Below, piece after piece: positions 13,251-59,476 of a stretch of 64,000 nucleotides of DNA. The stretch comes from Ectocarpus siliculosus (Eukaryota; Sar; Phaeophyceae; Ectocarpales; Ectocarpaceae), in the NCBI GenBank assembly GCA_000310025.1, contig FN649742.1:5507341-5571340 (forward strand). Reading direction: 5' to 3'. The notes under the pieces were generated by a model. It made no database searches and was not told the DNA's origin. It saw nothing but the letters and a program-made list of their open reading frames with translations. Position 1 is the first letter of the stretch; each line of letters starts with the position of its first letter. The position numbers were made by a program, and so were the translations under genes.

Positions 13251-16200
13251 ATGGGGTTCACCCGTAAGAGCGCGGTCCTCGCCCTTTTCTTCCTCGGGCT
13301 TGCCGCTAGGCAAGCCTCGGCTGTCACCACCTGCCTCGCCCTCATCACCGCGGTTGAGGCCATCTCCGGCACAGGGACGGTAGAGCTCGAGGGCGGCTTT
13401 ACCTGCGAAGCATACATCACGGTCGCTGCTAGCCAGGATGTCACCATCAGCGGTGCCTACACGATCACTCTGGGCGCACCCTTCGCCGGCAGCACGAACA
13501 CGGACGCGGGGGGCAGCCTGTTCGAGAACGAGGGCACGCTGAAGCTCGACGGCATCACGTTCGCCACGGAAACAACGGATGGGAACCGCGCTGTCTGGAA
13601 CACGGGAACGCTTTCGGTGGAAGGCTGCACGTTCGAACTTTACCCAACCGGAATCTTTCTCTCCAGGGGCGGTGTGGTGAGTGACTGGCGGGCAGCCCAC
13701 ACCACCGAAATAACGGCATGCAGGCACAAGACACAAGACAACAGAAGTACCGTAGCTCCACCTCGCCGTTTCGCATCCTGCCTCACGTCCTCTCTTTCCT
13801 GATCGATAAATTTGTAACTTGCTGCTGTAGATCCCAACGCCACACAAAAAATCGTGAGCGGTGACGGGATGTCATCTGCCACATTATGTATTGTATGACG
13901 TCTTGACGCGAATGAGAGGACGTGGCAGGGCCGGCAGCTTATTGGATTTTGTTGGATGTGGCATTTAATCCTACTTTGTGCCTCCTCTCTCTCCGTTGTG
14001 TTCTCTTAAATACAAACATACAAGCAGTTCCTTCACATTTTCCCCCTCTCTCAATCTTGCCCCCCCCCCCTGATGTATGACACGCATATGACCAGTAGGC
14101 CCTCTCTGATGACTGACGCCTGATGGCCGACAGACTGACATTTGTTCTCACTATTGTGCAGTCACTGGTCAGCTGTTCGTCTTCCACAGGCTGAAAAATT
14201 GTCCGCGCCACATTCTTTCGGATGAACCCCGACACCTCCTCACTCCTCACACAGAGCTTTGAACACCCTCTCGTGAATCTGTGAATAGAGGCTATGCTTG
14301 ATCGGGGTGGAGTGTAACATGTTCAGTTCACGCTGCTCTTTTGTCCGGCATTACCCCTCTCAGCGGGACACCTTGTGTTTTCTTTCTCTCCGCTTATCCC
14401 ATCGTACGATCGATTTCCTTGGTCCTCTTTCTATTTTTGTTGTGTATTTTTTTAAATGGGAGGTAACAATACTACCCCCGGCGCGGACAGCAGCAGCAGT
14501 GCCATAGTGGCTGAGCAAAGGCCGGACCGCCACCAATTGGATTACAGCACAATAATGAGTTGAGCGTAGGGCGGTGCCCGTAAACATTTTTCTGAAATGA
14601 CAGGTTGCATACTTTCTACGCGTGTTTTATCAGTTCTGCTCACCTTGCTTGCTCAAAAGTCTGTTTTGCAAAGGAAGAGAAATATACAATATCTCAAACG
14701 GGCATGTCACAGCAGTGAGATGGTTTACTTTCTAGAAAAATTGATACTCCCGAACTACAATGTACAGAGAAAGAAACAGAGGGTCTGTGTGTGTACGTCT
14801 AGAATGTAGCAAACGTCTCACACCTCTCACCAGGGAAGGAATTGGGGCTGAAGTTTCCCTCCGTATGCTGTCTCTCTACGGCGATAGTTGTGCACGGATC
14901 AATGTCCGAATGCCATGTGGTATCTCACAGCTACAGGCATTCATGTTATTTAGCGATGATGCGAAAGTATATGATATTCGTGCAACGTTAGTTTTCCGAT
15001 TTGGAAGTTTCCATATGGTGGGGATCTCTTTTTCTCACAAACGCGAAACACACCGGTCACTACTCACATGAGGTTCCCAAGCGAAGACGCAAAAGGGTGA
15101 CATGCATAGTGAATTGGTTGTGTCGTGCGCGAACAATACTTGGAAGTGATGAAACAGCCACCCTCACGTGCCTCAAGGAGCACCAACGGCACGCCAACTA
15201 CCTACCGTATATGACACAAGATAACACACCTACATAAGAAACCACACACTCCACAGATTACGACACCCCGGTTACATTTTTGGGCGTTTCTGACAACCCA
15301 TCGATTCATCACCCGGGATACACAAGATAACACACCCCGGTGATCAATTAAGGTTACGCGGCATATATTCACGGGGCTCCTCCTATAATAATATCACCGG
15401 GGTGACAGCATCTGTCCCTGGGCATCACACACAACACACACCCTCTGTGTGCGGGAAATGCCCCGCTTGGAGACCTCCAACAACATGAACATGCAGGAAG
15501 AAGAGCAGACTGTCGCCGCAAGTACCTCCGCTTCTTCCACAACTGCTTCGACCGCAGCACAGGCGCAGCAGATCATTTCGTTCTTTCAAGCCGAGCAAAC
15601 TTGTTGTACGCAAGCGGCGCCTGCTACGGCTCCTCCTCCTTCTGCTGTTGATCTAACCACAGCAGCAGCTGGCACAGCAACAGACGACAACATGACAGCC
15701 ACCGCCTCGCCTCACCAGCAGCCAGTTGCTGACTCGCTCTCGGCAGCACGTACAAGTACCGCAGATGAGTCAACACGCACCACCAAAGCCTCTCAGCTGG
15801 TGTTGGGGGACACCCCCTCATTATCACACCCTCAAACACACCCTGTGGGTGTTCGAACGTGCTACAACGTGACACCCCCTTGTTATCACACCTCCTCATT
15901 GATCACACCCCGAAACCCACCCTGTGGGTGTTCGGACGTGCAATCACCCCCCTCTGTGTATCACACCCCCTTAGGGGCCCCTGCGAGCTGCACTTTATCA
16001 CCCGGGGTACATAAGATATCACACCCCCCACAGGATACCACACCCGGTGATAATATTCTTCATCCCAAAAATGTTGATCACCGGGGTGTGTTATCTTTCG
16101 TCATTTACGGTACATGTCTCCCAGCCCCCACCATAACACGCGCATACCGTGTACCATGACACAAGATAACATACCCCCTGGACCGGTTTTCAAAGCTCGA

Positions 16201-19200
16201 TTTATCAAAAGTAGAGAGAATCGCAGCGCCCGCAAAGGCGGCGTTGAAGCCGTCTGGTCAGAGCTCTCCGAAAGCGCATCGTTTCGTTCATGCATCCTGT
16301 TCTTGGTGGAGTAATCGAGCTTTGAATTTCGATCCAGGGTTTGTGGTATATTTTTTCATATACGGCTTACATCTGTGCAAGTCACACCACCGACGATAGC
16401 CTATTCAATGGCCTCTTGGAATGTCTAAATGTAAATGCCACTATAATAGTGCACGCCGCCGCGAACTCAAAGTTGCAAGTTGTAGTCAGTGAACCCCGCG
16501 ACTGATGGGTGTCCTGCTGTTGGCACGTTGGGATTCAATCCGAGCGAACGCGTGCTTGCTCAACACTGCTGTTGACGCTGAAGTGTTGCACGTGCCCCGT
16601 ACTGCTGTTTGTTCCTTCTCTGCTGCCTGCTGTGCCAGATCTACTCCGACTCTGCAGGAACGATTTCCATCTCAGACTCCACCTTCAAATCAAACCTCGC
16701 GAGCGAGAGGGGCGGTGCAGTGTACGCCATCGGCTCCGAAACCCTCACCATCACGGACTCCCTTTTCAGGGGCAACGAAGTTGGGACGGGCGTTGCCGCG
16801 GACGGCGCAGGAGGCGACGTTTACGCAGGCACCAATGTTGACCTCACGGTCACTGGCACGACGTTCTCGACGTCTGCGGCCGAGTACGGTGGAGCTGCCA
16901 TCGAGTGCTGCGGCGCGGTAATCTCCGACACTGTCTTCACGGGAGCGGACACTGCCAGCGACGCCGTGAGTCGACGGAGGGGTTCAAGAGAGAAACGAAC
17001 GCGAGAAACTGCTGTCCCAGTCATCTGCTGTTCATTTACTCTGCCTCGGTTTTGGGGAGCTCCTTTGCCGCTGGCATATCTTAACGGAAACGCTCCTGTT
17101 TCCACCGCTTGACTTGACATGCCTGCTGCACAATCAAGCCAGGACTCACGTGTTGTCTGGAAGTGGGCATGTTGGCTTGTCTTTTTTTCGCATGCCCTGC
17201 ATGCCTTCCATCGCCGTCCAAATAGTTGCACAGTAGCATGGTCCTTTCACGATGACTTAGAGTTCGTACTGCTGTATCTGTTCACACCGAGCACCATTAT
17301 GATTCGCTCCTACTGTACCCGTCTCCCCGACAAATGCAACCTAATCTTGGATCAGGCGCACTACGGCGGGGCGCTGCTGGTCAACCGCCCTGACCAAGAC
17401 GGATGCCCGAGGGAGCTTGACCTCTCAAACTCGACGTTCAGCGGATGCACCGTAGGAAGCACTACTGGAGCGGGCGGTTCCGTGGCCATCTTCGACACTT
17501 CGGCAACAATTACCGACTGCACTTTCGAGAGCAGCGTTGGCACGGCGGTGCTGTTCTCGTCTTCCAGCGATTCCGGAGAACACCAGCTTCTCGTGAGTGA
17601 CGCGCGTTTTTGTGGTCAAGTGCATTTTTGTCGACGATTCCACTTGGGTGAGGATGTCCACATGTTCCGCATCTTGACCATTCACTGCTCTCCGCTGCTT
17701 CCCGAACGCCTCCTTTTGTCTGCGTTTCAGATGGACTACGTTCAGTTCAACCTCAACACCTTCCCCGCTGAGGCCTACGCCACCGACACTGAGCAGGGAG
17801 CTGCGATCGTGGTGACGAACACGGGCGTGGCGGATGTGAGTTTGTTTCGCTTGGCCGTGATGGCTTCGGAAATGGGTTTGCTTTCGATGTGTTGCAAGTG
17901 TTCTTGAGCTGGAGGCAAAACCCTCAGATTTTGGTACGGACTATTCGATGCAATACTTTTGTTCGCCTCATGGGGGTGACACCTCTGCCATTTCTTTTCC
18001 CTTCGGAAGGTGCTGCGTTGGGTGTTGGACATTCCTGTAGTAGTCGTGCAGGGAATATTTGAGACCGCCTTGGGCGAGGCGGAAGGAACTGGCGGTCGCT
18101 GGGGCCCCTTGAGCGATCAACACTTTTTACTCCCCTTGGATGCGGATCAAACATCGAAAGTTCTGGCTCGTGTCCAATGTCATCCTATATCATTCCATTC
18201 GTGCCAGGGAGAGACGACGGTGACCATGGGCGAGTTCAACGACATGTACTGCTTCGCCAATGAGCCTTACGAGTGCGAGTTTGTGTACGATCAGTCGGAC
18301 ATCGTCCACAGCGGGGAGTTTAAGTGCCAAATCTGCGACATCGAAGGGGAGCGACAACAAAGTGGCACCGACGACGATTTGATCGAGTGAGTTCAGTGAT
18401 GTGTATTGGCCGCCGCCTGTTGAAGAAAAAATAAAAAGTGTCAGTTGAAAGCGTCCCTTCCGTAGAGCGCTAATATGTTGTCCGATAATAGGTTGCAGGT
18501 TTGTTCTTCATCCCATGGATTTCTCGACAAGAACAAGATTGAAACGTATGTAGTGATATATTTGTGATTGTGTAACTTGGCCTCGTTGGTGATTCTGATT
18601 CGTCGGTCGTCTTTGGCGGCATTTCCTCTGTTGTAGATGTCGCTGGCTATGTAGCCGGAGACCGTTGAGCAGCGAAAAGAAGATTGTTGTATTGGGGTTT
18701 TTTCCTGGGCACCCTCTGGACAGAGAGAGGTGCTTGTCTCGTCGGCAAGGCAGTAATGAAGGGATTTGACGGCAATAAGTAGGAGTGTGGGGGAGAACTA
18801 AGTTTTATAGACCAACGAGAAATGTGTCCGATGGTATCATAGAGTGGACACCGCAAGACCGCTCCTTTCTAGCCGGAAGGTCGTACCCCATGGAAAGTGT
18901 ATCATGCAGGGGAGCTGAACAAACAACGAGATCAGAGGGGTAAGGTGCACATGCAAGCAAAATGGTTTGCGCGACGTACAGCAGGTCGAATGTCAAAATC
19001 AAGGGTGGAGGGATGGGGATGAATTGTTGTCCTTTGTCGGTTCATGAAAAAGCGCGTGCTGTCTGACTCCACTTCTACGTCACGTCCATCGGCACTGACC
19101 CCTCCTTTCACCGTTGTTGCCTACCTTTGCTTTTTTATTTCAGTGCAAGCGAGCGCAGCATCGACGGGGACTCTTCGTCCGACAACCAGGGCATCGTCAT

Positions 19201-19321
19201 TGGCCTCTCGCTTGCCCTCGGACTGACGCTGGTCGTGATCGGAGCCTTGGCGGTATGGAAGTTCAGGGTGCGCAAGAATGCGCGCCGTCTCATGGAGGAC
19301 ATGGGCGAAGGCGACTTGTAA
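13251..19321 (+). CDS. Type I membrane protein with extracellular beta-helix, copy 1
   Basis: Six exons: 13251-13676, 16639-16965, 17356-17592, 17731-17835, 18208-18386, 19144-19321 (483 aa); all junctions GT..AG, phases 0,0,0,0,2 agree. Residues 1-24 are a signal peptide (LALFFLGLAARQASA). Residues 25-380 repeat strands of the type DGITF, STFKSN, RGGAVYAI, GGAAIECCGAVISD, GGALLVN, ITDCTF, which is the pattern of right-handed parallel beta-helix proteins; GGA and C-x-F turns recall polymorphic-membrane-protein repeats. Exon 5 adds a Cys-containing acidic module (MGEFNDMYCF..YECEFVYDQS), then a Ser/Asp stalk, a membrane helix at about 442-464 (GIVIGLSLALGLTLVVIGAL) and a basic cytosolic tail of about 20 residues. 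I infer a cell-surface protein with unknown ligand. A paralogue lies at 52565-59476. Beta-helix families also include carbohydrate-active enzymes, but I see no catalytic signature. Confidence 0.85.
15181..16110. mobile_element. Cluster of inverted-repeat elements with a coding-like insert
   Basis: Intron 1 of beta-helix copy 1 contains many copies of a word close to GATAACACACCCCGGTGATC in both orientations (for example 15321-15345, 15387-15403, 16032-16101). The pair at 16032 and 16101 forms a hairpin. Two tandem units of about 76 bp sit at 15835 and 15911 (shared CACCCTGTGGGTGTTCG). Between the inverted words, 15461-15800 holds an open Ser/Thr/Ala/Gln-rich frame starting MPRLETSNNMNMQEEEQ. 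I read this as a nest of non-autonomous DNA elements, perhaps with a captured or element-encoded fragment; no transposase is visible. Confidence 0.5.
16165..16352. repeat. MITE-like element, family A
   Basis: A segment of about 188 bp in intron 1 of beta-helix copy 1. The left arm has ACCCCCTGGACC then CAAAGCTCGATT; the right arm has the complement AATCGAGCTTTG then GATCCAGGGTT and a closing GGTAT. It is close to the element at 30619. Confidence 0.65.
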
Positions 19322-21936: not shown

Positions 21937-24900
21937 TTAGAATACCTCGGTCATGGGCTTGAGTTTCTTCTTCCCCTTCGCCGCAGGCATGTCTCCGTTG
22001 ATGAACATCTCGATAGCCCGCTTCTCGGCGGCTAGCAGGTTCTTGCTGTGCAGCGACCGGAAGCTCTCCGCGAATCTGCTCTCATACACACACGGCACAC
22101 AGGAGAGGCGAGACGGCCAGCCGAGACACAGGGGAACAGGGTTATCAGACAGAACGGGCCGGCAATCAAGAAACACCCACATAATTCGGGATGGTCGGGG
22201 TGCGAAGCTCTCGTTTGTTTCGTCGCCATCGTCGCGCACAGGTGTAACACAGGTGTAAAAAATATGAAGAAGGGTTTCAAAGTGTAGGATCAACCGCTGA
22301 GCTATAATAGCTGTGTTTCTTCTCCCATTTTCACATTTTTCGTGAAAATTTCAGCCTGTCTTTCTTGGTTCTGGGCCCATTCTGTACGTCGCGGAATGTT
22401 GTCTCCACATTTCACCATCGTTCCGACCCATGCATCTCCTACCTTTCTTCTCGTATGACTGTCATGTAATACGGCAATACTGCTGTACCCACTCAACGTT
22501 TCCCATTACACTTGCCGAGGGGCATGCAGAGAGGGCTACCACCGCCTTCCAAACCACAGGCCAGAGCAGGACACACCTACCTCACCTCGATGGCTAACAC
22601 GAGAACACGAGAAAACGAGGGAATCGGCCACACAACACAGATCATGCAGCAGCCGGACGGAAACGCGTGCCCACCTGTCTTTGGCAGCGCTGTTGTCGGC
22701 CACTGCCCGGAAGACATCTCTATGCCACGAATATCGCGCGATCAGGTAGGCGTCCGTAATGTCGTAGCTAGCGTCCGCCTTCGAACCGTCGGGAGACAGT
22801 GGCCACTCGTACCTTCAACGGCAAGGGTCAGACGTGTTTGCATGGCATGTGTCGCAGTAAGAACTGGCGTGCTTTCGTTTCCTTCGGTGCTACAAGTTCG
22901 TGCCATGCACTGACCAAGCAGTGGAGGGGAGACTCTGAGCCCCAAAGTACAGCAAAGAGATGACTTGGACGATTTCCTCCTGTACGAATAAGCAAAAGAG
23001 CAAGCATCCAACCCTTGGCTCATGTAACATACAAGCCAGAAGTTTCAATCGAAGCGATGGCGATGGCTTGGGGACGATTTACCCTGAACTGTACGAGTGG
23101 TCTAAGCATGACTGATGTAAGAATCCGCAGCCAACATTTGGCATATTCGAACCGTACAAGTCAATTCGAACCGGTGGAACCCCTCAAGGGACGCGTATGA
23201 TGATGATAATCGGCGATGAACAGAGAAAGAGACCTACGGGTGGTGGGCGTGTCTCTTGCAGCCTGGTAGCTCACAAACATGACGGCACATCGATCATGCA
23301 TCTTTTTTCACGGACGATGGCGTTACCCCTATCCGAGATTGGACACACGAAGGCAAATAACTGTCTCTGCGACGATGACTTGCCCGGATAAAAATAAAAA
23401 CTAATGTATCAGAGACAGTTCAGCCCACTCCGCCGAAGTAGATTTCCATGCGCGCTCGCAGTACTGCTGTTCCATGGACGTCAACCTGCCGCACCTGGAA
23501 TGTAAGGCCCCGTTTTCCTGGCTAAGCGCGAAGTCGTGCACGATTTGCTTCATATCCTTGCCTTCGGGCTGCGAGGTTTTGAGATCGAGAGCGGGAGGAA
23601 AAAGATCAACGACGGCACACTCGCATGAGAAGAACAGGAGTCAATCGGCAGTGGAACAGCAGGACAGCACACCGTGAACAGCAGTGATCACGCGGTACCT
23701 CGATAACCAGCAAGTACCTAAATCAAACTTATGACCTCAGACGCCAACACGAGGGCCACAAAAAAGTTGAGGCTGGGGACCTGCCCAACCATAGTCCCAA
23801 CGGGTTCGCAAGTATCAGGCAGGTATGTACCTATGTATTCCACGGTTCAGACACGCACCGCTACCGTCCACGTTTTCACCGCCTTCGCTCAACACACCAG
23901 GATTCTATGGCACCACACAGCATCGCACCACCACACAAATTACTCAAAAACTCTTCGACATACGGGAGTGTACCGTAAACGTTGGAGTTTTCCCTTCCGG
24001 GGAGGGGATCGTCATTTTTTTCTGAAATCAACCCCCCCGGGGGGAAATTGACGTAACGGGGGGGGGGGTTGTTTTTTTTTCCAACGCTACTTTTTTGGGT
24101 AAGTTAGCCTGTGACCACGGGAATCGACCGCGTCAAGTGCTAGACTAGTACGGACAGAAGAAGGTACTGCAGAGAGAACGGAACGGTTTTAATGTGAAGA
24201 CAACGACAACAACAACAACCCCGGGGGGAAGCCCCCCCGGAGGGTTGTGTAAAATAATGATGGTACACACACACGCCACACACACAGAGAGAGTGGCCAA
24301 ACTGAGATGGATAAGGTTGACGAGCAAGCGTTCAACAAGCAGAGGGAGGAGCAATGTAAGAGCAACGAAGGCGAAGAGAAAAAGACAGCAAGGAGGACAG
24401 CAGCTGAGGGAGTTTGTCTCGTCCAGCAAAGTGATTCCAAGAAGAGGAAGGGCCCGCCTTCCAGTGACAAACGGTACACTTAAATCTCGCTCGAAGGGCA
24501 GATCTGCAAATGAATTTTGTGTCTCATATCATGCTTTTTGTGCTCCGCGATGCAAAAAAATCGACTCAGAAAAAAAGAGAAATACATCACCCCCGGGGGG
24601 AACTCGTGGGAAAACTGGTACCCCGGGAGGAAATTGAAATACCCGGGGGGATCTTTTTTTTTTTGGTCGAAAACGATCTACCCCGGGGCTAAATCAAAGA
24701 AACCATGCTTTCAGGTCGAAAAGGTAATGGGGGGAGGGGAAAACTCTACTAGGGGGGGGAAACTCCGACATTTACGGTACTTGCAGCGTGCATGGTACTC
24801 TCAGAAGCCTTTACGCTATTATAATACTTATTTCTAACTTTCATTTCAAGGTTTTTGTCTTGCCTTGTTCTTGGTGAGGCTGTAGAACGACCGCGGTGTT

Positions 24901-27145: not shown

Positions 27146-28002
27146 CTTCAAGTAACGGTTGATTCGAGCACATGCAGATACAGCGATTTCGTGCAGCACA
27201 AGGAGAGGAGAGGAAGGTCTATAATATAACTCGCGTGATGCAGTGCAAATGTAAACACTCACCACATGCGTACACCTTGAGAGTGACGACCGTGGGGAGA
27301 CTCGGCGCCGTCCGTGCTTAAATTTGTTACCGGAACGGTCGACCTCGAGACCCAACGACAACCACACACGGAGGGAGATAATTACAACTGGAGTACGATT
27401 TACTCCGCACACCCAACTCCAGAGTTATGGTTGCCCGATGCACGTGCCCCCCGTCCTTCTGGAGGAAAGATGTACTCAACCATTCAACCAATTAACCGTG
27501 GGAAACGGGGGAGGGGAGAGAGGAAAGGGAAAACGGAGGCTGCTCGTCGCGCATACATGTACGGGTGGTACAAGGCGCAAGACTGAACAACTGCCTGTGT
27601 GCAGGTTAGCTGCTATGTTTCAGTCCGGTTGCTTCCTTATCCTCCTTTCCTCCCTCGGTCGCTCCCGGCCACTCACTCCCAGGCAACACTGAACAAGAGG
27701 GGACGCAGAAACACCACTAGTTCGGAATACCGGGAGCCTAGGCAGGTGGTCTGTGTATCTCTACAAGATATACCCGTCCAGATGGTATCTTAGCCCAATG
27801 GTCCAAATACCATAACACCAGCCCACCCGGAGCAGACATGTACGCAGAGGCTAGAACCTGAAGAGGGGTAAGCAGCAATCCATCGGAACGATCAAATGTA
27901 AAATTGAGGATACGGAGCCTCACTAACCTTAACCTTTCTAACACACCTACGTAGAATTCGAGAGAGCTGCGCGCTCGGGTAGCAAAAGGGACAGGATCGA
28001 AA

Positions 28003-28377
28003 CAAGCGCAAGCTAAGGCCAGCAAACGTGGGCTGACAGCAGGCATGAAAGCGGAGCACAAGAACCGCCATCGGGAGCCGCCTGGGAACGAGCTTAACAT
28101 CATCGAACAACGGCGTGCCGTAGACAGCGTCGCCGCCGCTGCCAACACCGCGCGGGACGAAGAGGCCGCCGCCACGCAGCATGCGCGGGAAATGATGCAG
28201 CAGGAGCGGCAGCAGAAAGCTGCCAAGGCCACCGAGGAGGTCACCATGCTGCGGAAGAAGCGCTCCTCCGCAGCCGATCGCCTACTGCAGCTCCAAAAAG
28301 AGACGGCCGCTCGGATGCTGAGACTCATTGGGATTACCTGTTCTTCTCCTGCTAAGGCGGCGCTGGGCCCTTGGTGA
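28003..28377 (+). other. Coiled-coil open frame, probably transposon-derived
   Basis: The frame is open from about 27962 and has ATG at 28045. The protein is Ala/Gln/Glu/Arg-rich with heptad-like spacing (ARDEEAAATQHAREMMQQER, then RLLQLQKETAARMLRL). Similar helical tails occur in Myb/SANT-type proteins of PIF/Harbinger-like elements, which is a weak parallel. It runs straight into the left arm of a palindrome, which truncates it. Function unknown. Confidence 0.3.
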
Positions 28378-28874
28378 CTACAATGTATCGCGCGGGAGAC
28401 GACGTGATCTTCAGCAGGTGCTTTTTGGCGGCGTTGTGGCTTTCTCTCTCTCTGCGACCGCCCTTCTCCTCTTGGTACCCATCGGCATGTTGAGGGTGTT
28501 AGTGTTGGGCGATCCCAGTTCGATTCCTTTGGTCGGTCTGCCGGGATCATGAATCTCTATTGCCCAACCCCGGCAGATCGACAGGAGGCATCAAACTGGG
28601 AACGCCACCAGCCGACTCTTTCCACTCGCTGTTATTTGCCCGATCCCGGCAGACCGACGGAATGATCTCTATCGCCACGCCCGGCAGACCGACAAAAGGA
28701 GTCGAAATGGGAATGCCAAACACCAACACCCTCAACACACCGGTGGGTACCAAGAGGAGAAGGGCGGTCGCACAGAGAGAGAGAGCCACAACGCCGCCAA
28801 AAACCACCTGCTGAAGATCACGTCGCCTCCCGCGCGATACATTGTGGTCACCAAGGGCCCAGCGCCAGCTCAGC
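28351..28874. repeat. Large imperfect inverted repeat
   Basis: The left arm (28351-28545) and right arm (28680-28874) are reverse complements over about 190 bp with scattered mismatches; both contain the shared block GGCGCTGGGCCCTTGGTGAC. A short motif CCCGGCAGACCGAC repeats inside the spacer and arms (near 28566, 28648, 28680). The arms diverge enough to be an old duplication. Confidence 0.8.
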
Positions 28875-29587
28875 AGGAGAAGAAAAGTCACAACAAGCCT
28901 CAGCACCCGAAGGAGCGAAGTTTTTAACATCGGTTGGCATTGGCATGGCCGAAAGAGCAGCGGCTTTGTTGGCGTTGGGCCTGATGCCGTCGGGAGCGAT
29001 GGTATGCCCCAAAAATGCAGAGTGTGTCGTGCCGATGGTGGCCTTGGGCGATGAAAGCTTTGAGCTATGAGCGTGCTAGTGACTTTTTCTGTTCCCCCCC
29101 TTCGAAGCACCCGCGTTGTACTGTAAAAAAAGAGTTGCGTATTTGTATAGCTCTAAAAACGCCAACGAACGCAATCAAAAGATGGAAATTTCTAATCGGA
29201 CACCGTTAAGGGCTCGTATTAACATAACCCCCCAGATTAATCTAGTTGGTTTCCTCTCAACCCTTTATGCACAGCACCAAGAGTCAGTGGTTCGAATCCC
29301 GGCGTAAGAGGTAAGAGATATTTTCTTGCGAAAAGATAGTTTTCTCTCGAGCTTGCGTTCCTGGTCATGGGAAGCGCTACAGCAATCGGTGTGTACACTT
29401 TGAGGGAGGAGAGTGCTGCACTCTTCCCCCCGTTAATAATCGAAGGCAGGCACCGCAGGAGGGGTGGAACGAGAGGGACCCTTCTGAGTGACCACGGATT
29501 GTTGCCAGCTCCTACACGGCAGAAATTATAAGTGTGTTGTGAGCGTCTATATAAAGTGATGAACAAATATATTCTCGAGTAGTGGAA

Positions 29588-29820
29588 TAAGAACCTCAAC
29601 TTCCGAAGTCCGGCGGCGGAGCACTGAGGCGGAAACTGGCAAATTGTCCAATCAGTGAACGACCTTTGGTATTTATTATTTTTATTTAGGGCCGAATAAT
29701 CGTCTTAGGGTGGCCCTTGTCAGACAACTTTTCCGCCCAAAATCCAAAATCCAAAGTGCCGATGATTGGACAACGCGCCAGTTTTCCGCGCCGGAATTTG
29801 GACGTGGGGGGTTGTGTTCC
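29588..29820. repeat. Inverted-repeat (hairpin) element
   Basis: The arm at 29627-29656 (GGCGGAAACTGGCAAATTGT then CCAATCA) pairs with 29762-29791 (TGATTGGACAACGCGCCAGT then TTTCCGC). Pairing continues outward with gaps. The spacer is A/T-rich with no coding capacity. I regard it as a MITE-like element unrelated in sequence to families A and B. Confidence 0.6.
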
Positions 29821-30063
29821 GATATCTCTCGAAATGGTGAATCAAGAGCGAACACGTACAGACCCTGAAATCAAGATAAAAATGTCAACCGGAACATCAG
29901 GCTGCGTTGCCACGCCCTCAACAAATCGTGCACGCCTTCATTTTGCTGCTCGTCTAGCCACCTATGCATAAAATACAGACTGCTTGGCGATGCCAAGTAA
30001 TACCTCGACAGAAAGCTGGCATCCAGTAGAACACGGTTACTTTCTTTGACGGAGATCTGCTCC

Positions 30064-30084
30064 AGAGAGAGAGAGAGAGAGAGA
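30064..30084. repeat. Short GA microsatellite
   Basis: About ten GA units in intergenic DNA. Confidence 0.9.
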
Positions 30085-30618: not shown

Positions 30619-30825
30619 GCAACATAACACACCCCCTGGACCGACTTTCGAATATCGGTTTCTCAATAGCAGAAAGAGTCACAGCGCCGAAAACGGTGGC
30701 CGTCTCGTCGAGAGCTTTCTGACAACGTATGCATATTTACCGTTTCATGTATTTATACATCTCTTCGTCGTGGCGTACTGCTATAAGTCGAGCTTTGAAT
30801 ATAGGTCCATGAGGTGTGTTTATCG
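30619..30825. repeat. MITE-like element, family A
   Basis: Left arm CAACATAACACACCCCCTGG followed by ACCGACTTTCGAAT; right arm, reverse-complemented, begins ACGATAAACACACCTCATGG. The body is about 200 bp and non-coding. It resembles the element at 16165 in both arms and in the CACAGCGCC core. Confidence 0.7.
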
Positions 30826-34700: not shown

Positions 34701-37700
34701 AGTATCCTAACAAGTATGAGCCAAACTTGTCGAAGTTGATCTGTCTTTGGTTCTTGATATAGTTTGGATTTACGGACTTGTCTCGTACAAACGCGATGCG
34801 CGAGGCGATGATTTCACGGAGCCCCCCGCAAAGATCAGAGTTGAATCCTGGTTCAGCTGCGAGCGTTTCGGCTATGATCCAGCATTGAGTCAAGAAAGTC
34901 CAGACGCTGTTCTTCGTATGCTAGTGGACGTAGTGAGTCCATGAACGAGAGTACTGTTGGGAAGAGCGTCGTCACCAAAGTTCTGGTGCTGCATCAAATC
35001 GTGCGTGGCGCAAGAATCGATTTGCTTCGATTTGAGAACCAAAAACACGATACGACTAAAACACCCCCAGTTCTGCTCTCTCATTAGACTGTTACATCGC
35101 ACGATCACAGACAAGCTCTCACCCTCGGAGGGCTTGGGGGGCTCCCAGTCTGAATCTATTCCAATAATCTGGAGACCTATCAGATCGAACTTGGTTCGGT
35201 TCCGCTGGCGGTTGGACCCCTTTCCTCGCCATTCGGCAAAGAGATCTACTCGTCTAGCGTTCCATCTTTCAGCAGCCTCATCCCGCAGAGCAGCGAGCGT
35301 ACTATCTACCCTAGGTCGCCTGTGTTGGACTACAAGCCGCAACATTTTGTGGCGGCAGAAGGGGACGAGGAGGTGGAGGAGGAGACGCAAGACACCGCCC
35401 TGAACGATTCAGAGAGGGCGGAAATGACGAACATCATCATCTCTTCGAGTGACGAGTCGCTGTCAGTCACTGACAGCCGTCGTCAGCGACTGACAGCGAC
35501 TCATAACTCGAAGAGATGATGATGTTCGTCATTTCCGCCCTCTCTGAATCGTCCAGGGCGGTGTTTTGCATCTCCTCCACCTCCTCGTCCGCTTCTGCCG
35601 CCATAAAATGTTGCGGCTTGTAGTCCAACACGGGCGACCTAGGGTAGATAGTGTGCTCGCTGCTCTGCGGGATGAGGCCGCTGAAAGATGGAACGCTAGA
35701 CGAGTAGATCTCTTTGCCGAATGGCGAGGAAAGGGGTACAACCGCCAGCGGAATCGAAGCAAGTTCGATGTGATCGGTCTCCAGGTTGTTGGAATAGAAC
35801 TTGTCAGAGGAGACGCTGCCGAGGCCCCTTTCAAGCTCAGAGTCTGAGTACAAGTAGAGGAGGTGGCTGAGAGTCCTCCTCGTGCGCTTGGCTTCATTGT
35901 ACTTGAATTTCTCGAGTGTTGGGAGTATCCTTTGGGTGGCTCCCTGAAGCGCGTTGACAATCTCAAGAAGGCAGATCTTCATGTTGTTGCTTGTCTGGTC
36001 AGTACCCATGGTTGGTGGATGCCGTTGATCGTTCTGAAGGGTTTTGAAATGAAGTGACGATGTTAGGGCTGTCATGAATCGCTCTCAGCTTCACCTGCTG
36101 TGCGTTCATGAATCGAAATGCGTATTGATCACAACTTCACCTGATGTGAGTTCATGAATCGAATATGCGTATTTACGTGTACACTTCAACATGCTGCATA
36201 AAATTCCGCATGAAAGAACTTGGTTCTGCGCAAGAACATTTTTACACAAAATGCTCTGTCGCATATCGTCTCCCCAAAACCAAAAACATTCCCCGAACCA
36301 AAAACAATTAATTAATTAAATGAACACACCCCATATATATATATATATATCCTTTGCATACCCATGGGTGCATAAAATGTTATGTTTCTCTCGTTTCCCG
36401 GTTCAAGCCCTTTCATTCTCTTTACCCTTGTTTGATTTGTCCCGTAGTGCTTTCGTTGATTCCTCACGGCGTGTGCCGTGGGATTGAAGTATTATAAAGT
36501 AGCTCGAGAAGCCTGCTCGAGAAGCCTGATAAATATGGCTTTCGGTTGATTTTTTGTGAGACAGTCGGCATACATGGTGTCCGTAGGTGAGTACGTTAAT
36601 TTCACCATGGCCCGTGAACTCTTTGTTTCACTTGAAGATGGCCCTGAAAGGTCTGGTCTTTGGGCCAGGGTTAGTGTCGGGGATAACGTTACCGACGGCA
36701 GTCCTGCCGGTGCCGTTCTATGGGCGACGAGATGATAACCTTGCTTTCCACTTTGACCTTGACCTCCTAGTACTGGTACTGTACAAGGCATAGAACAGTC
36801 TCAGTCAGTGAGTAGACTCTGACCCATTCGGAAGCTCGAGTTTTCGAAACGTAACCTTTGTTCTCCTTGACGAACGGTCTCTCGTCTCTTGACCTCGCCC
36901 CGTACCTTACCTATGTACTCTTCTGCGTAGAGAACACACCCCAACAGATGCCGCATCTCAAAGAAATTCCTCTCAATCAGTATCACATCAGCATATCTAT
37001 CCCCTTTTTTTGTTGTGTATCTGGTGGCGTCCGGAGCTCTCTATCGATATCTCTCCCGTACCTACAGGGTCGTCTAGACGCGTACGGACGTACCAGTTAG
37101 TGCACATGAACGTTCAATTTCATGTCGCGGTCTAATGAGACACGATTCTGCTCTCCTTGCATACCCGCTGTCGCTGTCTGTGCCGTGCTGACTGCTGGCC
37201 ACGGGACAACATGGGGGTGCTCTCCGATATTGGCATTGCTGACGTATTGCGATGGGTGCATAGGATGGGGCGAAGATTACCGTACAAATGACGGCAGGGA
37301 GTACATGGACCAGGTACGCTATCATGAGCAACTCCGTGCCTACTCAACGTCCTCCCATCGTCTTGTTCCTCGGGGATGTTGCCGCTCACATGACTACAAC
37401 AGTTGCTTCTCATTTATTGTTTTCAACGATACCTGCAGCCCCTTCTCTTGAAAATCCTGCGGCTGCGTTTCGTCCGTTGTCCGTTTTCTGGCTTGATGTT
37501 TTGTTGTTGTCCCCGATCGATGCTCTCTCTCTCTTGTTGGTTGTTTTTGACCGTTGAACCGTTCGATGTCGTTACATTTTCCATTGGTCGAGAATGCGGT
37601 GCAACTGCTGCTTACTGGCACATAACATGACCACTGTACATGTCGCCACGAAGTGCTGGGTGCACCTGTACGTGGTAACGCCCTTCATGCTAACATCGCA

Positions 37701-43732: not shown

Positions 43733-43773
<41 letters not shown>

Positions 43774-45995: not shown

Positions 45996-46051
<56 letters not shown>

Positions 46052-50811: not shown

Positions 50812-52403
50812 CTGCTTTGTGGATGGATATGCACGATAACGGAGTTGAGGTGGCATTGTGGCATTTCAGTTGACGAGAGGGTGACAAGAAGCGGTGAAAC
50901 GCAACGTTTGACGTTACGATGTTACAGCAGTTGTTGTTGTTGTTGTTGTTGTCTTCACATTAAAAACCGTTCCGATCTCTCTCTACCCAGTACCTTCGTA
51001 TGTCCGTACTGATCCAACACTCGACGCGGTCGATTCCCGTGGTCGCAGGTTAACTTACCCTAAAAAGGTACACTCAAATAAACTGGCCCCGAGGGGTCCG
51101 CAAGTCAACATAAATCAACGACAGATATTCTGGAATCCTCCACTCCCTCTGCGCGCTATGCGAGGTATCAACTGAGACTAGCAGTCACTGTCTATCATGG
51201 GCCGGAGAGAAAGAGGTGCACCCCCTTGGTTCAATCTTGGTAGTCCACTCCAAAAGCGGCAACCTTTGGCAATCAAACAGCAGTTGCAGCTGTAGGCCAT
51301 TCATGTACGTACCTCCACAGACTGTAGTACGGCTGTACTGCTGTTGATTGAGCTAGAAGTAACCGGGACAGAACTACCACCGTTTTGCATGTATACAATG
51401 ATGATGTAACAGCAAGAGGTCCCATTTTCCGAATGCTAATGCTGTTGCTGCTGGCTATACAACGCAACCACGTGGGTTGGTTCCAAGGGTTTGCCGGTAG
51501 GCACATGTCACTTATATACCACCATGGCTGACAGAAAAGCGCTGCTACAGGCCTCCTGCTACTGTACAGCTGTAGGTGTCGCTGTCATACTAGCAGGCGA
51601 GGTGCGATACTGCCCCGGGTGACTGCCGTAGACTATTTATTGTAGTCTCCCCCCCACAACTTTTCGGCAAATCAGCCACGGACAGAACTTTCACGACTCA
51701 CGACGCACCCACTCTACAGTACCCCTCATGACCGCACGTTACCTTGAAGGGCCATAGGTTCTTGTGGTTGTGCGTGGTCTCTTTGGTCTATCATCGTGCG
51801 TAGGTCCGTCGCGTCTCTCTCCGCCCTGCTCACTGCTCTCTGCTGCCTCGGCGCCTCGGCCTTGTACGGCTGATTCCGCGTTGCCCCTTGCTTCGAGAGA
51901 TTGCGAGACAGAGTCGGGGGGGCACGGATGTATGATTATTTTTCCTTACGTGTTTTCTGTTTTCACCGGGCAGGCAGAGAGCCAACTTGCCTACTACCAT
52001 ACGCCGCAAACTGCACTGATTCGGTGGCGTTATAAATGCATTACCGACCAGAAGGTGTGAGTGCGAAGAGGTGAGGAATCGCTTTTGTCTCTCTCGCCCA
52101 TGACACACTCTTTGGCTTGCGCATGATGTAGATGCAGAAGTCGCCTCGTCGACCGTACGATTTTTCCGCGGCCGGCGGGAAAGTTGCGGATGCGGTGGAA
52201 CCCGTAAAAACATGTGCTTAATCCACGCGCACGTTTTACAATTTATGTCTCATCATAACTCAAACGTCATGTACCCCTGGGTCTGCAACTTCCCCTCCGG
52301 TTTGTGATTGAGTCTTACTCTACCTCACTCGATACCCATCGACACCAAGCCGCCCTCGCGCGTACTTTTCTCCGTTGTCCGCGTCGTCTGCCGAAGACGG
52401 ATA

Positions 52404-52452
<49 letters not shown>

Positions 52453-52564
52453 ACGGACGTGCGGAAACACTTTCCCACTCACGCGAGTTCTCCCACACCC
52501 TCTCCTCTCTTGCTGGCAGGGCAGGGCCATAGGCAGGAAGGCTTCGGCCCATCCCACCAACGAA
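50812..52564. other. Divergent intergenic region between PCID2 and beta-helix copy 2
   Basis: This must hold the unplaced first exon of PCID2 on the minus strand, needing an ATG and an end leaving one base. I could not single it out. A GTT tract lies near 50931-50951 and a GA microsatellite at 52410-52447, about 120 bp before the beta-helix start. Nothing else is supported. Confidence 0.45.
52410..52447. repeat. GA microsatellite upstream of beta-helix copy 2
   Basis: About 18 GA units in the probable 5' UTR or promoter of the gene starting at 52565. Confidence 0.95.
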
Positions 52565-55500
52565 ATGGAGCTCTCCCGTAAGAGCGCGGGCCTCGCCCTC
52601 TTCTTCCTCGGGCTTGCCGCTAGGCAAGGCTCGGCTGTCACCACCTGCCTCGAACTCCTCATCGCTGTTGAGAACATGACCGTCACAGGGACGGTAGAGC
52701 TCGAATCCGGCTTTACGTGCGACGCACACATCACGGTCGATGCTAGCCAGGATGTCACCATCAGCGGCGCCTACACGATCACTCTGGGCGCACTCTTCGC
52801 CGGCAGCACGGCCACGGACGCGGGGGGCAGCCTGTTCGTGAATGAGGGCACGCTGGAGCTCGACGGCATCACGTTCGCCACGGAAGCAACGGATGGGAAC
52901 CGCGCTGTCTGGAACGGCGGAACGCTCTCGGTGGTAGGCTGCACCTTCGAACTCTTCCCGAGCGGAGGAGGAGAGTTTCTGGCCAGGGGCGGCGTGGTGA
53001 GTGACACAACACCACATGCCAGGACAGTAGCAGGCGATGATGTCCCCGACCAGTCTTCCCCGTGGCGTCCTCTCTTGCAAGAAAAGAAAGACAGATAGAA
53101 ATGGGGGCGGGCAACTATTTGTGGGGATCAAACAAATAAGTCTACCCAAATAAATGCGTATTCCTTATAAACAATACCCCGTGGCCCTACCCACGGAGAT
53201 CAGCATTGACGTCTACTTACTGCAGTAGTCTACACCAAGGGCGGGAGGGGAGTAGCCGGCGCGTCCGCGCTCCGCCGAAAGGAATTGCAGAGTTACGGGG
53301 CTTGCGCTGTTGTTGTTTTTTTGGGGGGGTAAAGCCGCCGACGAAACAATATATGTGGTATTTGCCTGCCGCCGCCAACAAAAAACCAATGTGTGCTGTT
53401 CGGGAAATGGTGGAAAAACAGAACATTCGCTGACGCTATGTATTCATTGCTACTCTATCTTCGACTCTTTTCTTCGATAAAGATGGATTCGTTGGGTCAT
53501 ACTGACAAAATAAAAAAACCAAACTCGCATAATCTGCGGGCCCCGCAAAAACCCATCCACGAACCCCACGCCTACCAGATACATACCACTCAGTCAGGCA
53601 GACCACCCTGCTTTGGTCTGCTGGCCTCCACCCGCTTTGGCTCCATCCATTCCATGGGTCGATTTTGTTGGACCAGCGTATATATACGCCAACGTTTGGT
53701 GACTTGCTTGCGGTCACCAGTTCAACAATGGGAGTGGGAGGCCTTCGGATCCTCCCTTCTCTCTCCCCTCCGGCGGCACTCTGTCTTCTGAGACCTTCTC
53801 CTTGCCAAATCCCAAGAAAGAGGACAGCCAGCCCCCGGTAGTGGGTAAATACCACTCCGATCTGGGTCTCCTACCACTCCCTAACTCCGCACAATTTTCA
53901 TCCCGAGGTACGTTGAACAGCAGCTTGTGCATTCCATGTATTCTTTGCGTCTAAATATCTTATCAGCTGATATAGGTTATTAGCGTTTCGTGTTGACGTT
54001 GCAGACACTCACCCACCACAGTAATGTTACAATAGTCACAAGAGTAGCGGCACGGCAAGGGCTCTACAGTGCATGCAGGGGGAAGCTTGGCGAGCCTGCG
54101 GAGCAGCCAAACGCGCCCGAGTCACGAACGAGACCAAGTCTTCAAGGAGAGAGGATTTCCACATGTGGCCGGGAGGTCTTAAAAAATTCTGCATGGCGCG
54201 GACTCGATTCTCCTCTGCAGCCTTTTCCGTCCTTTCTTGTTTTGCTGTTCTTTTCTTGTCTTATAGTGGGCGGTAAACTTACCGAGGGCTCCCCTGGCAA
54301 ATTTCTTACTTCAATGTGTGTGCCGATGCGCATAGAAAATGGTTTTGTTTTTCTTTGGCGGGCCGAGAAGGAAGGAGGAAACGTTCCACTGGTCTTCGTA
54401 TTGGATGAGTACATGGTACACTCCGAGACACATGCACGCTTTTTATCGTCGCAGAATTGATGAAATACGTGTTGCATATGCGTTGGCTTGTTGGTGAAAA
54501 GCTGCTCCTGTTCATACTTCAATAGTATTGTGGAGGTCCAGTATCTAGCACTACAGTACTACTGTGTGATATATCCCAAATAAGGAACGCCCGTTCTGGT
54601 GCTTGTCTGCCTGCATGCATACTTTACGTCGTTTTCTCTGAACGTTCATGGTTGTGTTCTTGCACCTACCTCCGGGTGGAACATGAGATGCTTCAGGTGC
54701 TCACGCAGGCGAGGTTAGTAGGCCTCCCTGTGGTACGGGTGAATAGCTTGACGTTCTAGTGTATAGAGGTAAAGCAGCTGTAGAGGCTAAAACATCAAAA
54801 TCTGCCGAAATCGAGCGGTACAAGGGCTTCAGCGCGTCTGAGGGGCGGGCGAAGTATTTCGTCAGCCGCCACTCCCTCAAGCCTATCAACAAGTACGGCC
54901 AGACGGGTAGTGTCGACGACGCAGCCATTGCGGGTGGCCCCCACAGCGCGTCCACGACAAGATTGCCCAGTAAGAACCGGAGTGCATCATCACCTGCTAC
55001 GAGACTGCGCTGCAGTTTAGGATGCTGCTCATCTTGACGTACACCGCGCCGGCCGAAAAGAGGAAGACCGTGTACTGAGGAGTAGAAGGCATGGCGAGCG
55101 CGTGATGCTGTTTATGGCGACGGATGCCAGCGGGCGAAAAGTACCGCTATCAATGATCGGCCACGCGAAGATGCCCGGTGCTTTGGCTCAGGAAACTCGC
55201 CCCCCCCCTCAAATAAGGCGATTCGGTACGGCGGGGACCTGCCCTGAGAAAAACCTTGGTACACACAAGAAGTCCCAGAAGCCTGGCCCTCCAAAGGAGA
55301 TCACTTGAATACTCCGCACGCGCTGCATAGCTCACGTTGAAATGACTTCCGTTTTTTGTACCAGACTCATAGTTAGACTGCCATAAGTAAGGCGGAGTAC
55401 ATTTTGATACTGTTGGATGATAAGAAGCACCTCTTTTACGCAACGCTCTCCACCATATGCTTCGGGGCACAACATGTAATGTTATAGAGTCCACCGGTTG

Positions 55501-58500
55501 TTTCCTTCGTGGTATGATAGAGTCTACTGCATCTCTTGGGGGTACAGATGGTGGACTTGGGGGATGATTATCCCTCCGTTAGACGTCCATGAAGTAGCAC
55601 AAACGCCACCTGACCCATCTGTGCAAGACCTACCAACTATGAACCCACACAGAGTTTTAGTCTCAAAACGTCACGTTGCCGCCGGGGTCTTTTTCGCGAT
55701 TTCCGGTACCCGCTATTGGGCACAACTGAATATCGGTCGGACGTGTTGTAACTGCTGCGAGCGACGAGAAAACCACGTAGTGGCTGTTGTCGTGGTTATC
55801 CCGCCACTGAGTTTGGTGGTAGCAGCTGTGTATATTTTTCTAGGTGAAGCCTCAAGGTTTTGGACACAGACTTTGCCGTCTCTTAGACACAGATTCTGCC
55901 TTTTCTCAGACAACAATTCTACCGTTTCTTAGACACAGATTCTGCCGTTTCCTCCCCACCACTTCCACCTACCAGGTACGATTCTGGATGATCGTGCCCA
56001 CGACCTCGCTGTCCAACGCCACTGGATCCTACAGGAAGTCGTCGTCGCACGGCCGCTTCGATCACATACGATAGTAAATACTCAAGCTGGAGGAAGGCCA
56101 TACCCAACTCTAATCCCTCGGGCCCATTACAGAACTGCAGTCTTCTCTTGTCTTTTCGGAGAGAGTCCAGGGACATTGGGGCATATCGAACACGCGAGAT
56201 CGAGCACTCATCCCTACGTGCTGGTTTCTCGTGTGGAACAACCGCACGCGATCACAATGTCGACCGTGCTGAAGATGTACGTCTTTCCTGCCGTGCCGCC
56301 TGCTGTGCCAGATCTACTCCGATTCCGACGGAGAAATTGCCATCTCAGCCTCCACCTTCAAATCAAACATCGCGAGCGAGAGGGGCGGTGCAGTGTACGC
56401 CATCGGCTCCGAAACCCTCACTATCACGGACTCCCTTTTCACGGTTAACGAAGTTGGGACGGGCGTTGAAGAGGGCGGTGCAGGAGGCGACGTTTACGCA
56501 GGCATCAATGTTGAGCTCACGGTCACTGGAACTACGTTCTCGACGTCTGCGGCCGAGTACGGTGGAGCTGCCATCGAGTGCTGCGGCGCGGTGATCTCCA
56601 ACTGCACCTTCACGGGGGCGGACGCTGCCAGCGACGGCGTGAGTCGACGGAGGTTTTTGTTGTCAAAGAATACATATAGTGAGAACGAAGTGTCCAATCT
56701 GATCTGGCTTGTTGTTGAGGGGTGCTCCCTTTTTGTCCTGTGGCGATTGGGAGGGGTTGTTGTGTGTCTGTGCAGACATCTTCCCTGCGTTCAGTCAAAT
56801 GCTCCTACCCCCCTGCATTAGAAAACACTCCTGCTCCCATCCACTCTAAAACTCCAGCTGCACAACCAAGCCAGGAACCACGTACATGATGTCTCGGACA
56901 TGACCATGGTATGTAATTCCCATGGCCTGCATGCCTTCCACCGCCGTCCAAATAGTTGCACAGTAGCATGGTCCGTTCGCGATATTGGGGTCCGCACATA
57001 TTGACAAACTATTTTGATTCGCTTCTATGGTACCCCGTCTCCCCGACAAACGCAACCTTAATCTTGGGTCAGGCGCACTACGGCGGGGCGCTGCTGGTCA
57101 ATCGCCCTGACCAAGACGCGTGCTCGAGGGAGCTTGACCTCTCAGACACGATTTTCAGCGGATGCAGCGTAGTTAGCACTACTGGAGCGGGCGGTTCTGT
57201 GGCTATCTTCGACACTTCGGCAACAATTACCGACTGCACTTTCGAGAGCAGCGTTGGCACAGCGGTGCTGTTCTCGTCTTCCAGCGATTCCGGAGAACAC
57301 CAGCTTCTCGTGAGTGACGCGTGTTCTTGTCGTCTAGTAGTGCATTCTTGTCGACGATTCCACTTGTTGTGTGAGGATGTCCACATGTGCCGTAAATTGA
57401 CCTATCACTGCTGTCCGCTGCTTCCCGAACGCCTCCTTTTGTCTGCGTTTCAGATGGACTACGTTCAGTTCAACCTCAACACCCTCCCCGCTGAGGCCTA
57501 CGCCACCGACACTGAGCAGGGAGCTGCGATCGTGGTGACGAACACGGGCGTGGAGGAAGTGAGTTTGTTTCGCTTGGCCTTGATGGCTTCGTACTTGGTT
57601 TGGTTTGCTTTGGGTGTATTGGAAGTGTTCTTGAGCTGGAGGCAAAACCCTCGGTTGCGGCGAGGTTTATTCGAATAGCAGTTTGTCCTCCGGAAGAGGG
57701 AGTCACCTCGGTCACTTTGTCTCTCTTTGGGAAAGTGCTGCGGTGAGCTTCACAGCACTCCGTAGTAGTCGTGCAGGGAATATTTGACACCACGGTAGAC
57801 GAGGCGGGTTCAAAGTTTAAAGAACGCGTCGGCGATGTCTGCCGGGCATAAGCGAACAACATTACCGATAACCCTGAAGGTTTCCAACTCACGTCCAACC
57901 TCATACTATTCCATTTCATTTCATTTCAGGGAAACACGACGGTCGTCATGGGCGAGTTCAACGACATGTACTGCTTCGGCAACGACCCTTACGAGTGCGA
58001 ATTTGTGTACGATCAATCGGATATCGTCCACAGCGGGGAGTTCAATTGCCAACTCTGCGTTATCGACGGGGTTCGACAAGAAGTCAGTGGCACCGACGAC
58101 GACTCGGTCGAGTAAGTTTGTTGATCTGCAGGACTCTGGTGCCCCCCTCCTTACGTTGTTTCCTTCTTGTAGGATAAAGTGCGGCGTCCTTCGCAAGCTC
58201 TAACTCTTACTCTAGGCACACACCAACTTGTGGTTCACTTGTACGTAAGCTACCCATACCCAATTTGACTTTTCGGCGCTCTTTTCGTTGCAACCGGGAG
58301 AACAGAAGAAATTTCAACCAGTCTTCGAGCTCCGACAGTGCCACCGACGACGGCTTGAACACCGGGTAAGCTTGTTGATCTGAGGGACTCTGGTGGCCGC
58401 CTGTTTAAGAGTACAAGACGACCAGTCCTATGCCCCTCCCTCCTTGCCATTCTTGCTTCTCGTAGGATACAGTGCTGCATCATTCGTTCCCCCTGACCCT

Positions 58501-59476
58501 AGCCCTAACTGTAGGCACGCATCCGAGTTGTTCAATTGGACGGGAAGCTACCTCCTACCCCATTCGGATTTTATCGCGCGCTTTTGTTGAAACGAGAGAC
58601 CAGAGGCATCGGCCAGACTTCGAGCTCCACCTCCGTGCAAGAAGGCAGTGGCACCGATGACGACTTGAACACCGGGTAAGGTTGTTGATCTGGAGGACTC
58701 TGGTCACCGCCAGTTGAAGAGCACCGTAAGGTTGCTAGTCATCGCACCTCCGAACGGTCGTTTTCTACCATATACATTTTCGCCATCACACGTTCATTGC
58801 GATGACTCCGGACTGTGCAATGACTCCGGGCACGTGTGCGGAATCGAGTTCAATCAATTAGTTTTTGACGTTTAAGGTACACCCCTGTGCGATAACTCCG
58901 ATAGCACTGGAAATACGCATGTTTTCATCTCCTTCGTACCTCCACATGTGGTTCACGACGATGCCATATGTAGCGGAGCCAACGTGCCTGTTTGGTTGCA
59001 GGGGCAAAGATTGCACCGGAATCGTTGGCGCTATTATATTAGTCATCGCACCGCTGTGCCGTGACTCGGAACTCTGTGCGGAAATCGAAGTAAAACATTA
59101 GGCCATTAAATTTTATCGCACGAGGGTGCAATGACTCCGGGACTGTGCGATGACCCACAATCTTACGGTACAAGACTGTCAGTCCTATGCCCCTCGCTCC
59201 TTGCGATGTTTCCTTCTTGTAGGATATAGCCCGGCGTCCTTCGTTCGCCTTGACCCTAGCCCTAACTATCGGCACACTTCCGAGTTGTTCTTTCGTACGT
59301 AAAGCTATAACTCCTACCCAATTTTGGCTTTTGCGCGTACTCTTTGTCGCAACCGAGAGAACAGAAAAATCGACCAGAGTTCGAGCTCCGGCTCGTGGGA
59401 ATCGAAGGACTACGTTATCATTGGCCTGTCGGCAGCTGTGGCTTGTGCATCATCCTGGCAACCGGTGTTCTTGTAG
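52565..59476 (+). CDS. Type I membrane protein with extracellular beta-helix, copy 2
   Basis: Eight exons: 52565-52996, 56312-56638, 57073-57309, 57454-57558, 57930-58111, 58306-58365, 58604-58675, 59365-59476 (508 aa as read). Borders are GT..AG and phases 0,0,0,0,2,2,2 agree. Exons 2-4 have the same lengths (327, 237, 105 nt) as in the copy at 13251. Signal peptide LALFFLGLAARQGSA at residues 10-24; beta-helix strands as in copy 1 (DGITF, RGGAVYAI, GGAAIECCGAVISN, GGALLVN). The acidic Cys module (MGEFNDMYCFGNDPYECEF) follows. Exons 6, 7 and the start of 8 are repeats of one Ser-rich stalk unit (NQSSSSDSATDDG; GQTSSSTSVQEGSGTDDD; DQSSSSGSWESK). The membrane segment starts DYVIIGLSAAVAC, then the frame stops early at 59474; another frame gives a better hydrophobic continuation (CIILATGVLVV) and runs to 59595. 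So the protein either lost its anchor or the sequence has a 2-bp error. Function inferred only as cell-surface. Confidence 0.8.
54759..55078 (+). mobile_element. Possible transposase DNA-binding relic
   Basis: The plus-strand frame has KGFSASEGRAKYFVSRHSLK followed by GQTGSVDDAAI. A helix ending in S-x-G then F-x-x-R-H-x-L and G-x-x-GSVD is the layout of CENP-B/Tc5-type helix-turn-helix domains of pogo-like transposases. A 1-nt frame change would be needed to continue into VHDKIAQ. It sits in intron 1 of beta-helix copy 2. No DDE domain is visible. Confidence 0.35.
58112..59364. repeat. Tandem stalk-exon repeats with introns
   Basis: Three units of about 240-310 bp share blocks in the same order: a donor-side TTGTTGATCTG..GGACTCTGGT, then CCTTGCC/TTCTTGTAGGATA, then CCTAACT..GGCACAC/GC, then a stalk exon after GAGAACAG or GAGACCAG. 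Units begin near 58111, 58365 and 58675; the third is split by the element at 58723-59169. Confidence 0.8.
58723..59169. repeat. MITE-like element, family C
   Basis: A 447-bp insertion in the third stalk-repeat intron. The 25-bp ends are imperfect inverted repeats: left ACCGTAAGGTTGCTAGTCAT then CGCAC; right, reverse-complemented, ACCGTAAGATTGTGGGTCAT then CGCAC. Internal copies of GCGATGACTCCGG occur near both ends. Comparing with the unit at 58410 shows the uninserted site AGAGTACAAGAC, so the insertion boundaries are well defined. Confidence 0.8.

Follow-up and report, generated by a model that had tools for sequence, protein, structure and literature searches.

Two paired genes with a common ectodomain-coding part lie 33 kb apart on the plus strand of a 64,000-nucleotide stretch of Ectocarpus siliculosus contig FN649742.1 (positions 5,507,341 to 5,571,340), referred to here as the window. 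Gene A spans 13251-19321 of the window, and gene B spans 52565-59476. We consider it reasonably probable that the two are diverged paralogues for a single-pass surface adhesin or recognition protein resembling the polymorphic membrane proteins (Pmp). The spliced model of gene A gives a product of 483 residues, which would be a type I cell-surface protein with a signal peptide. Its ectodomain would be a right-handed beta-helix of about 10 coils, with turns like those of Pmp repeats. An acidic module with four cysteines would follow the helix and lead into a Ser-rich, acidic stalk; beyond the stalk would come a single membrane helix and a tail of 20 residues. The most likely role of the rigid helix, in our view, is adhesion to or recognition of a wall polysaccharide or a partner surface, with the stalk keeping it off the membrane. 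Gene B would be a diverged paralogue of the same ectodomain. Its 5' flank, the interior of its first intron, and its 3' end show no recognisable similarity to those of A; they would have been exchanged or have diverged faster.

Gene models and the predicted beta-helix

A preliminary description of this DNA had proposed the gene pair, with equal lengths and phases for exons 2 to 4, and spliced models fit at both places. In A and B alike, exon 2 has 327 nt, exon 3 has 237, and exon 4 has 105; introns 1 to 4 are phase 0 in both, and the model boundaries used are GT-AG. Exon 1 (426 nt in A and 432 nt in B) and exon 5 (179 and 182 nt) differ by whole codons. The identity between the copies is 0.894, 0.914, 0.941, 0.971, and 0.872 for exons 1 to 5, in that order. 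Exons 1 to 5 of gene B are open, and their splice sites are intact. The gene B product would have 459 residues without the extra stalk exons considered below, and 477 with both. We infer the splicing of both genes from their sequence. Intron 3 (17593-17730 in A and 57310-57453 in B) has no in-frame stop codon in either copy, and its length, 138 and 144 nt, is divisible by three; if retained, it would add 46 (A) or 48 (B) residues in frame. Its translation lacks the coil motif described below in both copies. Because of the splice sites at intron 3, we set it aside, without rejecting it, as coding sequence.

Both products matched the Pfam family Beta_helix (PF13229), A with 41.2 bits and B with 35.3 bits, above the gathering cut-off of 25.9. 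The NCBIfam model POMP_repeat (TIGR01376) also matched A above its cut-off (17.3 versus 15 bits, E=0.0031). The earlier remark that the family was not recognised as a described system was therefore too strong. The coil motif [LIVAMT]x[LIVM]xxxxF, a pattern picked after the sequence had been inspected, occurs 10 times in each copy. Among 2000 shuffles, it occurred 1.51 times on average and at most 6 times for A; for B, the mean was 1.77 and the maximum 7. A GG turn follows 6 of the 10 coil phenylalanines of A, and a looser G turn follows 3 more, a pairing counted without a shuffle control. The turn pattern GG[ASD][ILVAYS] is found 6 times in A, against a shuffle maximum of 4. Whole coils are carried by the phase-0 exons 2 to 4, with four in exon 2, two in exon 3, and a single one in exon 4.

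Several results weigh against this reading. POMP_repeat scored 11.9 bits in B, below its cut-off of 15, and the Pfam family Chlam_PMP (PF02415) was below its cut-off in both A and B (12.7 versus 20.6). Each copy has only 3 exact FxxN sites (in A, in 3 of the 10 coils) and only 2 exact GGA[ILV] sites, and the 6 GG[ASD] turns of B were equalled by at least 1 of 2000 shuffles (maximum 6). AlphaFold predictions for two single exons, each made with two sequences, gave no confident model: the mean predicted local distance difference test score was 31.3 for exon 1 and 37.4 for exon 2. The best match of an A+B profile among solved structures was a WD40 protein (E=0.0093). A alone weakly matched two solved structures by phmmer, a chain named "Transmembrane protein, putative" (E=0.033), which we take to be ciliate-type, and a PL6 lyase (E=0.035). 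The beta-helix of A and B is supported by sequence, not by structure prediction.

An alternative, to which the weak PL6 match would lend some support, is a membrane-anchored, polysaccharide-modifying beta-helix enzyme, of the mannuronan C5-epimerase or alginate lyase type, that acts on the cell wall. Such enzymes belong to the same fold class: passages of PMC4444821 describe the AlgE/AlgG epimerase fold as a right-handed beta-helix and list PL6 lyases with a beta-helix as well. Brown algae have an average of 27 epimerase genes per genome according to an excerpt of PMC11468063. However, the conserved catalytic motif DPHD described in those same passages of PMC4444821 has the core DPH, which is absent from A and B, and neither protein matched an epimerase or lyase family in Pfam or NCBIfam at E up to 1. 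The match of A to NosD, a copper-binding Pfam family, was below the cut-off (16 versus 23.6 bits) and indicates no such enzyme. We regard an enzyme of this type as distinctly unlikely.

Extent of the duplication and divergence of the copies

The ectodomain-coding part is clearly common to A and B. In blastn, 13250-13685, 16612-16980, and 17122-18393 of A paired with 52564-53005, 56285-56653, and 56854-58118 of B, respectively. The last pair is 80.5% identical with E=0, and chance is therefore excluded. The similarity starts 1 base 5' of the ATG and ends 7 nt beyond the exon-5 donor. Introns 2 to 4 share sequence in part, as the preliminary description had noted for a block near 17200 and 56930. 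This block (17187-17253 and 56917-56983) is 93% identical, and GTGAGTTTGTTTCGCTTGGC follows exon 4 in both copies.

The first introns had been said to differ greatly in size and content. The claim of size did not hold, as they measure 2962 nt (A) and 3315 nt (B). Their content does differ; it is unrelated except for two short terminal stretches, of about 9 nt (5') and 27 nt (3'). With blastn words of 7, the 27-nt 3' end was the sole match at E<1. Given that outcome, we rejected a gapped global identity of 0.776 for intron 1 as an artefact of free gapping.

We then assessed the ends by strict local alignment of A against B, with 100 dinucleotide shuffles per region. The score was within chance for the 5' 1 kb (reached by 24 of 100 shuffles), the intron-1 interior (46 of 100), the 3' 1 kb (16 of 100), and the stretch from exon 5 to the last exon beyond the end of the blastn match (8 of 100). 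Two of the six tests were borderline, both with scores of 23: 1 of 100 shuffles reached that of the 200 nt immediately upstream of the ATG, and 5 of 100 reached that of the last exon, where the signal is a 14-nt near-match at IGLS. The ends and the intron-1 interior scored 23-25, versus 174 and 232 for the controls, intron 4 and exon 5. An earlier, looser test, which made gaps cheaper and used 30 single-base shuffles, placed the 5' 1 kb, the 5' 300 nt, the last exon, and the 3' 1 kb all within the shuffle scores; the whole stretch after exon 5 scored 797 versus a shuffle maximum of 734. By eye, about 90 nt more of A intron 5 resemble the stalk-unit introns of B, in the region that the strict test put within chance. 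Residual homology of the ends (5' 200 nt and last exon) may amount to at most a trace.

Clear similarity is confined to the part that opens with the start codon and closes shortly after the exon-5 donor. Therefore, the term segmental duplication used in the preliminary description overstates the case. A duplicated ectodomain part stands, and the flanks, the intron-1 interior, and the ends drop out as chance or borderline matches. The ends of A and B were either exchanged or diverged much faster. A third copy was not found in the window, where tblastn of A exons 1 to 5 gave nothing outside both genes better than E=0.46. It is possible, and in our view unlikely, that A and B are members of a family of recognition receptors in which the exchange of ends creates diversity. 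Such a family would combine a beta-helix ectodomain of whole-coil, phase-0 exons with stalks of varied length, with varied anchors, first introns, and 5' flanks, and with the optional 27-nt stalk exons of B.

Over 424 aligned codons of exons 1 to 5, synonymous divergence (dS) is 0.143 and nonsynonymous divergence (dN) is 0.088, with a dN/dS of 0.615 (95% range, 0.433-0.864; 500 resamples). The ratio is below 1, and coding constraint has therefore acted during at least part of the history of A and B. By exon, dN/dS is 0.853 (exon 1), 0.588 (exon 2), 0.371 (exon 3), undefined (exon 4, with no silent change), and 0.34 (exon 5). Divergence of the introns is uneven: intron 3 differs at 13 of 138 positions and intron 4 at 74 of 343 (Fisher p=0.0016). 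The alignable part of intron 2 differs at 34 of 212, which is not significant against intron 3 (p=0.08). Local gene conversion around exons 3 and 4 would explain the uneven divergence. Alternatively, the gapped alignment of introns can inflate the differences.

The membrane end and the state of gene B

The acidic module of A has four cysteines (C380, C388, C405, and C408), all in exon 5. The hydrophobic stretch at residues 442-460 has a 19-residue hydropathy peak of 2.62 and is followed by a basic flank. The C-terminal tail of 20 residues is basic and then acidic. In B, the last exon, read in the frame compatible with exon 5 (acceptor before 59380), reaches a best 19-residue hydropathy near the end of only 1.53, versus 2.62 in A. 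This frame stops at 59474-59476, and there is no tail. The neighbouring frame has a hydropathy of 2.04 and runs on. Because the membrane segment of B ends early and the neighbouring frame is more hydrophobic, the 3' end of B may be damaged. The architecture first ascribed to both genes fits the sequence of A (signal by eye, beta-helix with G-rich turns, Cys module, stalk, helix, and tail). For B, the helix is weak and the tail is missing.

The stalk region of B appears partly multiplied. With upstream acceptors, its stalk exons break the frame; internal acceptors would yield two 27-nt exons that keep the frame. With its membrane segment looking damaged, the B product may be secreted, or gene B may be decaying.

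These features also bear on an alternative in which copy B, at least, is a relic or decaying pseudogene, and the paired exons reflect shared descent and local gene conversion, not present function. The early stop in the membrane segment with the more hydrophobic next frame, and the two stalk units that fit only through internal acceptors, point in this direction. So do the dN/dS of exon 1 and the uneven divergence of introns 3 and 4, with the comparison of introns 3 and 2 falling short of significance. On the other side, exons 1 to 5 of B have stayed open with intact splice sites, and the overall dN/dS is below 1. We take a relic to be a real possibility, on the doubtful side.

The weak hydrophobicity of the B segment in its own frame would also suit a secreted or intracellular beta-helix repeat protein, in which the hydrophobic stretch near the C-terminus would not anchor the product in the membrane. 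The signal peptide of A (by eye), its strongly hydrophobic stretch, and the basic flank after it argue against this, and we consider it highly improbable.

Features of genes A and B in the window, with the description and basis of each
Feature	Position	Strand	Description and basis
Gene A exon 1	13251..13676	+	Signal peptide (by eye, ending ASA), coils 1-2; gene model, 89.4% identical to B exon 1, coil motifs
Gene A exon 2	16639..16965	+	327 nt, phase 0-0; coils 3-6
Gene A exon 3	17356..17592	+	237 nt, phase 0-0; coils 7-8
Gene A exon 4	17731..17835	+	105 nt, phase 0-0; coil 9
Gene A exon 5	18208..18386	+	179 nt, phase 2 out; coil 10, four-Cys acidic module, SGTDDD stalk start
Gene A exon 6	19144..19321	+	Ser/Asp stalk; predicted membrane helix, peak hydropathy 2.62; tail of 20 residues, first basic and then acidic; stop
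Gene B exon 1	52565..52996	+	432 nt; gene model
Gene B exon 2	56312..56638	+	327 nt; gene model
Gene B exon 3	57073..57309	+	237 nt; gene model
Gene B exon 4	57454..57558	+	105 nt; gene model
Gene B exon 5	57930..58111	+	182 nt; gene model
Gene B stalk-unit partial repeats (acidic SGTDDD-type segment, donor, intron, Ser-rich acceptor region)	58077..59390	+	blastn self-matches, repeat families, alignment
Gene B candidate 27-nt stalk exon	58339..58365	+	Internal acceptor, frame kept; alignment
Gene B candidate 27-nt stalk exon	58649..58675	+	Internal acceptor, frame kept; alignment
Gene B last exon, frame fitting exon 5	59380..59476	+	Stop truncates the hydrophobic segment, higher hydropathy in the neighbouring frame; gene model, hydropathy, alignment

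Known systems and other features of the window

The layout of A looks most like that of a Trichomonas-type Pmp, a likeness of layout and not of sequence homology. Excerpts of PMC6701047 report that specific Pmp and BspA proteins of Trichomonas raised adherence when expressed, that 90% of Trichomonas vaginalis Pmp proteins have a membrane helix, and that the aligned tails contain an acidic cluster. Like these eukaryotic surface proteins, which carry Pmp motifs, A has Pmp-like turns, one predicted membrane helix, and a tail that ends acidic. It differs from them in lacking the NPx[YWF] motif and in its introns, its Cys module, and its Ser-rich, acidic stalk. In chlamydial Pmps, FxxN/GGA coils make up a predicted beta-helix, with a beta-barrel at the C-terminus, and Pmp-type motifs are also named for Trichomonas, a bacterium, and an archaeon (passages of PMC10715098). 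A and B share with the chlamydial autotransporters repeated FxxN-like and GGA-like motifs and predicted beta-helix turns. However, A and B have no autotransporter or barrel match (Pfam, E up to 1), Chlam_PMP stays below its cut-off, and A has a single hydrophobic helix.

Among brown algal genes, the LRR-ROCO genes also have one exon per repeat-bearing segment and undergo exon shuffling as well as alternative splicing (PMC11378527), but they have another fold and other domains (LRR-ROC-COR, with leucine-rich repeats). A unigene listed in a portion of PMC10573767 has a name that suggests the same repeat type, a likeness by name alone. Beyond this unigene name, searches aimed at such proteins in brown algae turned up no literature on the family, and PMC12592211 nowhere mentions beta-helix, pectin lyase, adhesin, or outer membrane. 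Because proteins of this kind are already known from other organisms, the find is modest.

We also searched viral and prokaryote collections for relatives. With A exon 2, 26 stretches in viral contigs and 179 in prokaryote genome contigs matched the pattern, and none was confirmed. The A+B alignment matched 24 stretches in viral contigs, again with none confirmed. B exon 5 matched no stretch in viral contigs, and A exon 2 had no tblastn match in phages. Since only viral and prokaryote collections were covered, the absence of relatives says little about eukaryotes.

In an alga, the pair would provide well-delimited Pmp-like surface gene models in a photosynthetic lineage, with middle exons that hold whole coils. 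The products might then act in adhesion to the wall or in the recognition of gametes or microbes. The conserved ectodomain beside unshared ends would then be a concrete case of a change of anchor and regulation after duplication.

Rfam (at the gathering threshold) and ARAGORN scans of the window found nothing. The window has 54 listed open frames of at least 150 codons, ten of which were scanned against Pfam, and one reached the cut-off. This frame (6793-7329, minus strand) matched a DCC1-like thiol-disulfide oxidoreductase with 41.8 bits versus 27.8. The sole Pfam match of the frame at 2181-2777 (plus strand) was a porin, below the cut-off; by eye, this frame resembles what we take to be the start of an FKBP-type isomerase. 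Two long inverted repeats, at 35155-35798 and 28338-28887, have arms of 227 and 208 nt that are 94% and 91% complementary, respectively, and are possibly hairpin-type mobile elements. An element of about 130 nt is present in inverted copies at 24090-24219 and 50933-51067 that are 87% identical, with a partial copy at 11027-11109.

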